From Bacteroidota bacterium (lineage in GTDB: Bacteria; Bacteroidota; Ignavibacteria; SZUA-365), in contig JACZJN010000010.1 in assembly GCA_014860565.1 (NCBI GenBank), positions 1 to 38,874 of the forward strand: a DNA stretch of 38,874 nt, given 5' to 3'. The notes below the pieces were generated by a model that saw only the letters and a program-made list of their open reading frames with translations, did not search any database and was not told the origin of the DNA. Position 1 is the stretch's first letter; each line of letters opens with the position of its first letter. Below are positions 28,356-33,495 of this stretch, in pieces. The translations under genes were made by a program, and so were the position numbers.

Positions 28356-29561
28356 ATGTCGCGTTCGCCGCTAGATATCCTTACTCGTCTGGTCACAAAA
28401 CCAGCCCGTCTGGTGTGCGGAATCATGTCCGGTACCTCGGTCGATGCCGTCGATGTCGCACTCGTACGTCTGAAGGGCAGCGGTCCGTCGCTTGAGGTCG
28501 AGCAGATTCACTTTGCGGAGACGCTGTATGCCGAAGAACTGCAGCAGCGCATCTTCAATAACTGCGAAGTCGCTTCAAGCAATATCAATGATATCTGTCT
28601 GCTGCATACCGCGATCACGCATGTCTATGCGGATGCCGTACGCGCGACCTGTCGGGAATGCGATATTGCGTTGGAGGAAGTGGACCTGATAGGAATGCAC
28701 GGACAGACGCTGCGCCATCTCCCAGAGGCCGTTCATATCGCAGGACACGACATCTGTTCGACCCTTCAAATCGGGAGTGGTCCGACGCTTTCCACGCTTC
28801 TGCGCATTCCCGTCGTGTATGACTTCCGCGCAGGGGACATGGCGCTGGGCGGACAGGGTGCGCCACTTGTTCCCTACGTCGATCACCTTCTCTTTCAATC
28901 CGAAGCCGAGGATCGCGTGCTCCTCAACATCGGCGGCATTGCGAATCTGACCTTGCTTCCCCGTGGTGGCGGCATCTCGGATGCACTTGCGTTTGATACG
29001 GGCCCCGGAAACATGCTCGTCGATGCCTTGATGCGGAAGTACTACGGACGAGAATTTGATGAAGACGGCGTCGTGGCAAGCTCGGGCACGGTCAATAGCG
29101 ATCTGCTCTCCTGGATGCTGCAGCATCCGTTCTTCAGGCAGAATCCTCCGAAGTCCACCGGCAGAGAGAGTTTCGGGGAGGATTATCTCGATGATCTGCT
29201 CAACATCGCTCGCGAGCTTTCCGTGCTCGACATTTCCGACATCGTCGCAACGGTGAGTGAGTGTACCGTACGCAGCATCAGCATGCAGCTGCGCGCCCTG
29301 CTGCCCTCGCCGTATCGCTTCCGGCTGCTTCTCAGCGGCGGCGGTGCGCGCAACCATTTTTTCACCGATGGTCTGCGTTATTCATTCCCCGAGGCCACAG
29401 TGGAAAGCACGTCCGCCTTCGGCGTCGCCCCCGAATCGAAAGAAGCATTGGCCTTTGCGGTGCTTGCCAACGAGTGGCTCGTGGGCAATGCCGCCAATCT
29501 CCCCGCCGCCACTGGGGCAAAACGCGCGGCTCTCCTTGGCGCATTGGCCATACCTGCGTAA
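28356..29561 (+). CDS. anmK: Anhydro-N-acetylmuramic acid kinase
   Basis: 401 residues. AnmK opens and phosphorylates 1,6-anhydro-MurNAc in peptidoglycan recycling, giving MurNAc-6-phosphate. Visible motifs are GIMSGTSVDAVDVALVR (phosphate-1 region), GMHGQTLRHLP, FRAGDMALGGQGAPLVPYVD, LLNIGGIANLTLLP, AFDTGPGNMLVDALM and LSGGGARN (adenosine region), in the family order and spacing. The ATG at 28356 is chosen because upstream in-frame codons lack a ribosome site and family homologues start shortly before GIMSGTS. A partner etherase (MurQ) is not in this window. It lies downstream of the barrel pair but separated by 66 bases, so it may have its own promoter (TACAAT at 28324). Confidence 0.93.
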   Translation: MSRSPLDILTRLVTKPARLVCGIMSGTSVDAVDVALVRLKGSGPSLEVEQIHFAETLYAEELQQRIFNNCEVASSNINDICLLHTAITHVYADAVRATCRECDIALEEVDLIGMHGQTLRHLPEAVHIAGHDICSTLQIGSGPTLSTLLRIPVVYDFRAGDMALGGQGAPLVPYVDHLLFQSEAEDRVLLNIGGIANLTLLPRGGGISDALAFDTGPGNMLVDALMRKYYGREFDEDGVVASSGTVNSDLLSWMLQHPFFRQNPPKSTGRESFGEDYLDDLLNIARELSVLDISDIVATVSECTVRSISMQLRALLPSPYRFRLLLSGGGARNHFFTDGLRYSFPEATVESTSAFGVAPESKEALAFAVLANEWLVGNAANLPAATGAKRAALLGALAIPA

Positions 29562-29736
29562 TTGAGCTGTTTTCGCATAATTGTTAGGATGTCGTGAGAG
29601 TTCACTGTTCCCACCCCCTCACACCCCTCCTGATCTTAAAGTTTTACATTAAAATTTTAAAAAGTTAACCATCTCTATTGCAATCGGTTGCGGCATTTCT
29701 TTAATTTACCACTTAAAGGAATTAAGGCCGTTCATC
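29562..29736. other. AT-rich gap after anmK; no gene seen
   Basis: Contains homopolymer-rich sequence (TTTTACATTAAAATTTTAAA) upstream of the nrdJ promoter, which could act as an UP-like element. No terminator hairpin for anmK was identified. Confidence 0.35.
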
Positions 29737-29765
29737 TTGACATGAAACTGGGCAAGGTGTATATT
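29737..29765 (+). promoter_or_regulatory. Strong promoter of nrdJ
   Basis: Perfect -35 TTGACA (29737-29742), 17-base spacer, -10 TATATT (29760-29765). Transcription would start near 29772, about 207 bases before the nrdJ ATG. Confidence 0.7.
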
Positions 29766-29771
29766 CAAACC

Positions 29772-29978
29772 CACATTTCGGTGGCGCTTTCCGCGTTCGT
29801 TTACCGTAAATTCTGTAACGGACAATCCCCCGGCCTGCATGACGCGGGGGTGGGAAGTTACGCGCCAAGAGTTCTGTCAATTCGTTGTATATTAAAGACT
29901 TAGGATCCCCCTTTTACAGTTGCTGTGAAGGGGATTGTCATCTCCACTATCACAGATCGAAAAAAAAGATACCGCCAG
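29772..29978 (+). promoter_or_regulatory. Long structured nrdJ leader, candidate cis-regulatory RNA
   Basis: The inferred 5' leader contains CCCCCG/CGGGGG (29827-29832 with 29845-29850) followed by GGTGGGAAG. It ends with a larger hairpin (29905-29935: ATCCCC...ACAG, loop TTG, CTGT...GGGGAT) 43 bases before the start. GGTGGGAAG resembles a conserved block of cobalamin riboswitches, and the downstream enzyme uses B12. However, no B12-box (AGTCAGGA..CCTGCC) or GCCACTG is present, so it is not a standard member. It could be a degenerate or different regulatory RNA, or merely a long leader. Confidence 0.4.
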
Positions 29979-32900
29979 ATGAAAATTTCGCGTCAATTTA
30001 CCCGTCCCGGTCAGAGTGCTTACGATAGTTTCGAATACACGAAGCGCTCGTCCGTCCTCCGCAACCCCGATGGCAGCGTTGTGTTCGAGCTGCATGATAT
30101 TGAAGTGCCGGCGCATTGGTCGCAGATGGCGACCGATATCCTGGCGCAGAAATATTTCCGAAAAGCCGGGGTTCCTCTGATGAACGAAGATGGGACGCAG
30201 CGGGTGAATGAACTCGGTGAACCCCTCTTTGGCGGTGAGACGAGCATCCGTCAGGTCGTGCATCGCATGGTCGGCTGCTGGCGTGATTGGGGCGAGAAAA
30301 ACGGGTATTTCGATACCGTGGAAGATGCACAGAACTACTATGATGAAATGGCGTACACGCTGCTGCGTCAGATGGCCGCGCCGAATTCCCCGCAGTGGTT
30401 CAATACCGGACTCCATTTCGCCTATGGCATCACCGGGAATTCGCAGGGACATTTCTATGCCGACCCCGAGACCGGCGAAGTGGTGGCTTCGGAGGATGCG
30501 TACAGTCGTCCCCAACCGCATGCCTGCTTCATCCAGTCCGTCGAAGACGATCTGGTCAACGAAGGCGGCATTTTCGATCTGGTCACGCGCGAGGCGCGCA
30601 TCTTCAAATACGGTTCCGGTACGGGCAGTAATTTCAGCAGCCTGCGCGGCCGCAATGAGCGCCTTTCGGGTGGCGGCATTTCCTCCGGGCTCATGTCCTT
30701 CCTGAAAATCAACGACCGCGCCGCCGGCGCCATCAAATCGGGCGGCACCACGCGCCGCGCCGCGAAAATGGTTGTGCTCAACGTCGATCATCCGGATATC
30801 GAGGATTTCGTGCGTTGGAAAGTGCGTGAAGAAGAAAAGGTCGCGGCATTAGTCACGGGCAGCCAGATAAACAAGCTGCATCTCAACCGCATCATGAAGG
30901 CTGCCACCAAGGGTGATTCGGTCGATTACACTAAAAACAAGGAACTCCAGCTGGCGATCATCCAGGCCCGCCGCGTGGGTGTGCGCGAAAATTATATCTT
31001 TCGTGCGCTTCAACTGGTCGAGCAGGGCGTCACCGAGTTCGATATCGATGAATTCGACACGCATTACGAATCCGAAGCATACAACACGGTCAGCGGACAG
31101 AATTCGAATAACACGGTCCGCGTCACCAATCCCTTCCTCGAAGGCGTGGAGAACGACGGCAACTGGTCGTTGACCTTCCGTACTACCGGGGAAGTCGCCA
31201 AGACACTGCGCGCCCGCGATCTGTGGGACGAGATCTGCTACGCCGCATGGGCCTCGGCCGACCCCGGGATTCAGTACGATACGACCATCAATGAGTGGCA
31301 TACCTGCCCGGTCGACGGACGCATCAACGCCTCGAATCCGTGCTCCGAATACATGTTCCTCGACGACACCGCCTGCAACCTGGCGTCCTTCAATCTGAAA
31401 TACTTCTGGGATGACGCAAAGCACGAATTCCGCGTCGAGGATTTCCGTCACGCGGTGCGGTTGTGGACGATCACGCTTGAGATCTCCGTGCTGATGGCGC
31501 AATTCCCGAGCAAAGCCGTCGCGCTGAAGAGCTACCAGTTCCGCACGCTCGGTCTCGGATACGCAAATCTCGGCTCCCTGCTGATGGTCGCGGGTGTGCC
31601 GTACGACAGCGATAAGGGACGTTCCGTCGCCGCCGGAATCACCGCCGTGATGACGGGCGAATCATACGCGACATCGGCGGAAATGGCGCGCGATCTCGGC
31701 GCATTTCCCCGTTACGAATCCAACCGCGATCACATGCTGCGCGTGATCCGCAATCATCGCCGGGCTGCCTGGAGCGCCGCGGAAAATGAATATGAAGGCT
31801 TGACCATCACGCCGCTGATCCTCGACGAACAGCTGTGTCCGTCCAATCTGACGCGCGCCGCGCGGGAGAGCTGGGACAGGGCGCTGCATCTCGGCGAGCA
31901 GCACGGTTTCCGCAACGCGCAGGTGTCGGTGCTCGCACCCACCGGCACGATCGGTCTCGTGATGGACTGCGACACCACCGGCATCGAACCCGATTTCGCC
32001 ATCGTCAAATTCAAGAAGCTCGCAGGTGGCGGATATTTCAAGATCGTCAATCAGTCCGTGCCCAAGGCGCTCGAATTCCTCGGCTACACGCGCGAACAGA
32101 TCGAAGACATCGAGAAATACATCAAGGGCCACGGTACCCTGGCCGGATGTCCCGACATCAATCGCGACGCACTCATCGAAAAGGGCTTCTCCGGCGACGC
32201 GATAGAGAAAATCGAAAAGCAGCTCGACACTGTGTTCGAACTGCGCATGGCATTCAACAAATGGGTACTCGGCGAAGCGTTCTGCAAACGCCTTGGTTTC
32301 TCCGATGAGCAGCTCGCGGATCCGAACTTCGATATGCTCAAGTCCCTCGGGTTCACCAGCGAACAGATCGAACGGGCGAACGAATACGTCTGCGGTACGA
32401 TGATGATCGAGGGCGCTCCGCTGGTGCGCAAGACCGATCTTCCGGTGTTCGACACCGCGAATAAATGTGGCAAGCGCGGACAGCGCTACATCGCGTACGA
32501 AGGGCACATTCGCATGATGGCCGCGGTGCAGCCGTTCATTTCCGGCGCGATCTCGAAAACGATCAACATGCCCGCGGATGCCACGATCGAGGACGTCAAG
32601 CGCGCCTACACGCTGTCGTGGAAACTGATGCTCAAGGCCAATGCGATCTACCGCGACGGCAGCAAGCTTTCGCAGCCGCTCAACACGATCAGCGATCCCG
32701 AAGCAGCCGCGCTGGCCGAGATGGGCGACGAGTTTGATTTCAACGAGCAGATCGGTCCGAAGGAAGTGCAGGAGAAAATCATCGCACGCGCCGCCGAGCG
32801 CCGGAAACTTCCCGCCAAGCGGCACGGGTTCGTGCGTGAGGCGGTCGTGGGCGGACATAAGGTATTCCTCCGCACCGGCGAGTACGATGACGGCGCTCTT

Positions 32901-33431
32901 GGTGAAATCTTCATCGATATGTACAAGGAAGGCGCTTCGTTCAAGGGGCTGCTCAACTGCTTCGCCGTGTTGGCCTCGAAAGCACTGCAGTACGGCGTAC
33001 CGCTCGAAGAACTGGTGGACTCCTTCACCTTCACGCGTTTCGAACCGGCGGGAGTGGTGATCGGCCACGAAGCCATCAAGAACGCCACGTCGATTCTCGA
33101 TTATGTCTTCCGCGTTCTGGGCTACGAATATCTCGGTCGCACCGATTTTGTTCATGTAAAGTCGGTGGACGAAACCACCGAACAGCCGCTCGCCAGCTTC
33201 AATACACCTCCGACACTGACCCGCAAACGGGAGAACGGCGACGGGACGGCGCGTCCCGAACCCGTGCTCGCGGAGAAAAAAGTGACGCGCATGGACAGTG
33301 AATCAATTCTCGTCGCGCGCGCGCAGGGCTACACCGGTGAAATGTGCGGGTCCTGTGGCTCCTCCCGCGTCAAGCGCAACGGCGCCTGCACGGTCTGCGA
33401 AGACTGCGGCACCACGAGCGGCTGCTCCTGA
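29979..33431 (+). CDS. nrdJ: Adenosylcobalamin-dependent (class II) ribonucleotide reductase
   Basis: 1150 residues. The enzyme reduces ribonucleotides to deoxyribonucleotides with a cobalamin-generated thiyl radical and needs no oxygen. The N-terminus [20 protein letters not shown] matches family starts; an upstream GTG (29925) falls inside the leader hairpin and is rejected. Key regions are [49 protein letters not shown] (active-site Cys region), [20 protein letters not shown] and an HhH-like insertion (about residues 690-760). The Cys-rich C-terminus CGSCGSS...CTVCEDCG...GCS shuttles electrons from thioredoxin. It stands alone with its own promoter and terminator. Confidence 0.95.
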
Positions 33432-33456
33432 TTATTCGGTACTGACTTTGCGACGA

Positions 33457-33495
33457 CAGGCGATGGAGGATACTTCATCGCCTGTTTCTTTTTTT
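33457..33495 (+). terminator. Rho-independent terminator of nrdJ
   Basis: CAGGCGATG (33457-33465) pairs perfectly with CATCGCCTG (33476-33484), loop of ten, then TTTCTTTTTTT. Confidence 0.9.

Follow-up and report, generated by a model that had tools for sequence, protein, structure and literature searches.

A conserved, probably cis-regulatory leader RNA upstream of nrdJ in one family of Kapabacteria/Ignavibacteria

Introduction

The nrdJ gene studied here encodes an adenosylcobalamin-dependent class II ribonucleotide reductase, and its start codon is separated by about 417 nt from the end of the upstream gene anmK (29561). What this long upstream region does for the expression of nrdJ is the question that the locus raises. 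To our knowledge, little is known about the control of class II ribonucleotide reductase genes in bacteria without NrdR, and an NrdR regulon finds no support here, as the model TIGR00244 has no match in the genome (G000, 4.75 Mb, 97.8% complete) while nine of 14 control genomes do match it. The nearest named relatives of G000 are Ignavibacteria/Kapabacteria metagenome assemblies. The stretch of DNA that was analysed, contig C165 with 38,874 nucleotides, is called the window below.

The nrdJ Gene and Its Promoter

The features around the start of the gene are as follows.

29979..33431, + strand: nrdJ, adenosylcobalamin-dependent class II ribonucleotide reductase (NF005736, TIGR02504, PF08471)
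29737..29765, + strand: promoter TTGACA-17-TATATT (consensus match; same hexamers in all 12 family genomes)
29772..29978, + strand: predicted 5' leader of nrdJ, about 207 nt (from the usual distance between -10 hexamer and start point)
29635..29653, + strand: operator-like site 1, CTTAAAGTTTTACATTAAA, pattern CTTNAAGTNNNACATNAAA (family conservation)
29700..29718, - strand: operator-like site 2, inverted, about 65 bp from site 1 (found by the site 1 pattern)

The product of nrdJ is a full-length class II ribonucleotide reductase, which scores 1878 bits against NF005736 (cut-off 1737), also matches TIGR02504 and PF08471, and is related to the solved structures 7b9p and 7b9q. Its ATG at 29979 is kept in relatives. 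A strong terminator-like hairpin of 14 pairs with a T-rich tail lies directly 3' of nrdJ (33455-33486), consistent with a single-gene transcript. At the nrdJ loci of G027, G045, G047 and G077, the open frames are very long (1606-2433 codons) and the NrdJ matches in them are split, a pattern that inserted inteins would produce.

The initial annotation had placed a TTGACA-17-TATATT promoter far upstream of nrdJ, and this promoter is both present and conserved. It agrees with the consensus at 11 of 12 positions; the score alone proves little, since 2.4 matches to the loose pattern would be expected in the 5 kb that were scanned. Both hexamers, TTGACA and TATATT, recur in all 12 genomes of the family sample (G000-G011), at a spacing of 17 or, in L033, of 18, and the end of the -10 hexamer lies 189-234 nt before the nrdJ ATG throughout. 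A chance origin is excluded by this presence in 12 of 12 genomes at such a distance from the ATG. Transcription usually starts about 7 nt past the -10 hexamer, from which the leader length of about 207 nt is predicted.

Upstream of the promoter, the 19-bp palindrome-like pattern CTTNAAGTNNNACATNAAA matches the window twice, against 0.04 matches expected. Within three mismatches, site 1 was found in all 12 family genomes and in L009 of the neighbouring family, and in neither L011 nor L012; the pattern was derived from the same alignments as were tested, and shuffled regions carried a site in 0.36 of 13 cases on average. A second copy about 65 bp away was found, again within three mismatches, in ten of the 12 family genomes (none in L033 and L010), inverted in eight and direct in L007 and L008. 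The paired operator at 29635-29718 suggests a second, transcriptional layer of nrdJ control.

Comparative Evidence for a Folded Leader

On its own, the leader of the window is no more stable than its shuffled versions (-56.4 vs -54.9 +/- 4.7 kcal/mol, z -0.32). The support for a predicted structured leader is comparative and comes from relatives. The following elements were delimited in the eight leaders that have the whole region in common (L001, L002, L032, L003, L004, L005, L006 and L034).

29773..29875, + strand: 5' domain of the leader, which holds H1 and H2 (consensus fold of eight sequences)
29780..29801, + strand: H1, short hairpin (pairing in eight sequences)
29827..29850, + strand: H2, hairpin whose sequence varies, with a GG-rich stretch after it (covariation in eight sequences)
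29909..29933, + strand: H3, hairpin of 11 pairs (pairing, covariation, consensus fold)
29931..29943, + strand: invariant GGGATTGTCATCT, covering the three final pairs of H3 plus the 3' tail (identical in all eight)

The consensus fold of the eight leaders reaches -24.2 kcal/mol, against -5.7 +/- 2.6 kcal/mol for 300 column shuffles, none of which was as good (z -7.1). Control blocks of equal kinship gave z values of 0.1 (first 213 nt of coding sequence), -0.1 (a second coding stretch) and 0.2 (an upstream block). When H1, H2 and H3 are taken together, 86.9% of 206 cells are paired and eight pairs have changed on both sides, with a covariation score that one of 500 shuffles reached; slid versions of the three helices pair only 37-58%. 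Four other family leaders (L033, L007, L008, L010) and L009 of the neighbouring family, all without H3, were left out of this alignment, and L007 and L033 were restored in later alignment variants of the 5' domain. The leaders thus carry the conserved fold with compensatory changes that is expected of a structured cis-regulatory RNA, more weakly in the 5' domain. Covariation and conservation in relatives, on which the initial annotation had staked its proposal of a structured leader of about 207 nt, were both found, and the fold is shared by eight relatives while the length remains a prediction.

H3 with its 3' tail is the strongest element of the leader, and the hairpin is its best conserved structure. 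In H3, 96.6% of 88 cells are paired and three pairs have changed on both sides, a result that nine of 500 shuffles reach. The consensus fold of H3 alone has a z of -7.7 in the eight sequences, and the single-sequence z of the H3 zone averages -3.5 over the eight. The 12 G-U cells that it holds point to an RNA hairpin rather than a DNA palindrome. The hairpin previously marked at 29905-29935 exists, with its stem at 29909-29933. The 13-nt block GGGATTGTCATCT is invariant, whereas in 430 nrdJ codons (1290 nt) of the same species invariant runs reach at most 8 nt, and a single codon is kept at only six of the 33 Ile/Val residues that are invariant in nrdJ. For these two reasons the block is held to be under selection as nucleic acid and not as peptide. 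From the end of the tail to the nrdJ ATG there are 28-40 nt.

Two further readings of this zone were tried and dropped. An upstream reading frame from a GTG within H3 (29925) runs in frame into nrdJ in the window and meets a stop in seven relatives; a peptide explanation of this frame was rejected, as letters are kept beyond what a peptide needs. A pairing of GACAATCCCC, which lies before H2, with GGGGATTGTC of H3 was seen by eye and exists in the window only.

The 5' domain is supported by a consensus fold z of -3.7 in the eight sequences, with none of 300 shuffles as good, and its single-sequence z is weak (mean -0.8 over eight). Seven of nine alignment variants hold (z -3.9 to -5.0) and two fail, with 62 of 200 shuffles as good when L007 is included and 31 of 200 when L007 and L033 are; with L007 added in one alignment mode, the signal is lost (z -0.4, 65 of 200). 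In H1, 98.2% of cells are paired, with exchange among G-U, G-C and A-U and no double change, and in the window's own fold a long-range helix UGGCGC/GCGCCA beats the H1 fold by 4.8 kcal/mol. H2 has changed on both sides in five of its eight pairs, with 71.0% of cells paired. The initial annotation described a G/C hairpin followed by GGTGGGAAG; both are present in the window (29827-29858), but GGTGGGAAG itself is not conserved, only a GG-rich stretch being kept after the hairpin. Positions 29775-29782 may pair with 29864-29871 to close the domain; this helix is tentative, being good in four sequences (L003, L004, L005 and L034) and weak in the remaining four.

Distribution of the Leader

H3 occurs in eight and the 5' domain in nine of the 12 family genomes, as a single copy per genome and only before nrdJ. 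L007 has only the 5' part of the leader, without H3, and L033, L008 and L010 have other leaders. Perfect matches to the pattern RRGGGATTGTCATCTY were found at nrdJ in eight of the 12 family genomes searched, and nowhere else. Two models were built, R1 for H3 and R2 for the 5' domain. R1 matches strongly in eight of 16 genomes and R2 in nine, once in each; all these strong matches are training sequences, and all of them (eight of eight for R1, nine of nine for R2) hold a fixed place before nrdJ, downstream of the conserved promoter and inside the predicted transcript. Neither model found a new member in 94 nrdJ loci (leaders with identical last 150 nt counted once) or in the 16 genomes; one weak R1 match (E 0.004) lies away from nrdJ in G003.

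In six of eight genomes the complement of the tail, AGATGACAATCY, is found only at nrdJ; G005 has one additional copy and G008 has two, and these share no pattern. The motif GCGGYAGCG is present in 14 of the 94 leaders, whereas shuffling them gives a mean of 3.8. The view that these other Kapabacteria leaders contain the same RNA was dropped, because R2 has no match in them and no shared fold was found.

Known RNA Families and the B12 Question

No Rfam family matches the window at gathering score, nor any of 20 further loci. When 29560-30060 was compared by cmscan with the full set of 4227 Rfam families (E<=10), the only result was one chance miRNA match on the other strand. The models RF00174, RF01482 and RF01689, whose use had been proposed in the initial annotation, match the leader neither at gathering score nor, in 29560-30060, at E<=10. 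The genome has one RF00174 copy of its own, on contig C216 (116.6 bits), and of 81 genomes 74 have RF00174, with none of the matches positioned next to nrdJ. The suggestion of a cofactor-sensing RNA of unusual type, linked to the cobalamin riboswitches, is therefore unsupported.

A long leader before a B12-related gene does recall the cobalamin riboswitches, and the downstream enzyme uses adenosylcobalamin. However, the leader matches no Rfam family in sequence or structure, GGTGGGAAG is not kept in relatives and the genuine RF00174 copy lies elsewhere in the genome, so that a member or strange relative of the cobalamin riboswitches is highly improbable here. In earlier work, B12 elements are reported to precede the B12-independent reductase genes nrdDG of genomes that also hold nrdJ, and inhibition of nrdDG in the presence of B12 was proposed (PMC545781). 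An off-switch of this nrdDG type before nrdJ itself would make little sense, and there is no support for B12 sensing by the nrdJ leader.

Another structured RNA is named after the gene, the nrdJ RNA motif, which a further paper cites as an Rfam motif for Streptomyces ambofaciens (PMC8388888). No match to it appeared among the 4227 Rfam families at E<=10, its presence in Rfam being taken from that paper. The motif is reported there in Streptomyces, and the present leader belongs to a Kapabacteria/Ignavibacteria family; the two are set apart by model search. No description of such an nrdJ leader in the Kapabacteria/Ignavibacteria group was found in the open-licence literature, and the leader RNA is a candidate for a new, narrowly distributed element outside Rfam.

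Possible Control of nrdJ in Other Kapabacteria

Outside the family of the window, other arrangements were observed at nrdJ. Of 21 genomes searched, a set selected in part for the leader motif, 16 have CTTCCTCTTTATGCTGCA in the 3' trailer of tRNA-Gly(GCC), ahead of a terminator-like hairpin (L190-L204 and L211). The complement of CTTCCTCTTTATGCTGCA, GCAGCATAAAGAGGAA, occurs wholly or partly in nrdJ leaders, for example in L014, L017, L091, L123 and L064. The complementarity extends over 12-19 nt in eight of 20 leaders examined, five of them with the trailer, against a shuffled maximum of 11; in the family of the window it is at most 8 nt in all 12 genomes. In seven genomes, the 3'-UTR of another gene holds a whole or partial copy of GCAGCATAAAGAGGAA directly ahead of a terminator-like hairpin (L188, L205, L207, L208, L209, L212 and L215). 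The most over-represented 8-mer of the 94 nrdJ upstream regions is GCAGCATA (14 vs 0.23). On sequence grounds, the arrangement in other Kapabacteria resembles a small RNA derived from a tRNA trailer that targets nrdJ, together with a sponge RNA.

The sequence TT[AT]TCCACA, which resembles a DnaA box, precedes nrdJ in 24 of the 94 upstream regions (L014, L015, L017, L026, L028, L063, L087, L092, L098, L105, L109, L110, L123 and others), whereas shuffled regions give 0.4; in most cases a TTGA-type -35 hexamer follows 13-15 nt further on. This suggests a possible control of nrdJ by DnaA in the wider class; for the family of the window such a box was rejected, with none in 12 genomes. In addition, six related loci (L013, L057, L058, L059, L060 and L066) share a compact branched leader, GUUCUCC...CGGCAGCAGCGA...GGAGAAC, in the last 140 nt before nrdJ, with a consensus fold z of -2.7 (2 of 200 shuffles); the leader of L059 has no match to Rfam at E<=5.

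Interpretation of the Leader

We consider the nrdJ leader to be a conserved, lineage-specific, structured cis-regulatory leader RNA, with a probability of roughly 0.7. Counted against this reading are the small number of sequences (only eight or nine, from one family), the lack of excess stability in the window's own leader (z -0.32), the different leaders of L033, L008 and L010 and the missing H3 of L007, the two failing variants of the 5' domain, the unfavoured H1 in the window's own fold and the failure of R1 and R2 to find members beyond their training sequences.

The same small sample of related sequences could be taken to mean that there is no regulatory RNA at all, and that an ordinary long leader owes its conservation to DNA binding sites or close kinship, with a conserved promoter adjoining its 5' end and operator-like DNA sites just upstream. 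Yet two coding stretches and an upstream block of equal kinship have no structure signal, and H3 lies about 140 nt downstream of the promoter, tolerates G-U pairs and has a conserved tail on one side only, which makes an ordinary leader quite unlikely. The invariant unpaired block beside a hairpin would also suit a site bound by a small RNA acting in trans; the nrdJ leaders of other Kapabacteria families, to which a tRNA-Gly trailer is complementary, may be such targets. In the family of the window, however, six of the seven tRNA-Gly trailers (L174-L180) hold only a terminator-like end, L176 ending at the tRNA, and AGATGACAATCY is confined to nrdJ in six of eight genomes, the extra copies in G005 and G008 being patternless; a seed under 12 nt, or a partner encoded in the few percent of sequence that the assemblies lack, would have escaped this complement search. 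A small-RNA target is accordingly still less probable than an ordinary leader.

A riboswitch of a new class deserves more weight, although we regard it as rather unlikely. Its 5' domain would bind a small molecule (adenosylcobalamin, a deoxynucleotide or ATP), and the signal would be relayed through H3 and the tail. The layout is modular, as a branched 5' domain at the mRNA start is followed by a linker and then by a hairpin at 28-40 nt from the start codon, the letters of H2 vary while its pairing is kept, and the sole association is with a cofactor- and nucleotide-linked gene. Against this, no known aptamer matches, the most conserved letters are in H3 and its tail and not in a junction, only four of eight sequences form a good closing helix around the 5' domain, the leader has no terminator-like site, H3 stops short of the start codon and, class-wide, nrdJ never follows RF00174. 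A narrower proposal would make this leader the founding example of a riboswitch class in which the 5' domain binds the cofactor of the enzyme or a nucleotide and H3 with GAUUGUCAUCU signals to the ribosome or a nuclease; we regard it as unlikely.

As a cis-regulatory RNA, the leader would tune nrdJ expression after transcription start. Most likely a dedicated factor, with a protein favoured, would recognise H3 and GAUUGUCAUCU and so change the translation or decay of the nrdJ mRNA, while the 5' domain may act as a modulator or stabiliser. Taken alone, recognition of H3 and its tail by a protein is put forward tentatively, with somewhat more weight than a riboswitch of any ligand and clearly more than a small RNA with a short seed. 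Protein-binding leader RNAs, such as ribosomal-protein leaders, are found in narrow hosts before one gene and have a hairpin beside conserved unpaired letters. The nrdJ leader resembles them in host range, in its single gene and in its hairpin with conserved unpaired letters, and the binding factor here is putative. No terminator-like site of a transcription attenuator was found on the + strand of 29737-29979, and H3 is positioned outside the usual ribosome footprint; for these reasons classical attenuation and a direct block of the start site are not favoured.

A structured leader tied to nrdJ would offer a handle on the post-transcriptional control of DNA-precursor supply in Kapabacteria/Ignavibacteria and, if the ligand-sensing alternative were true, it would represent a new riboswitch class for a central enzyme.
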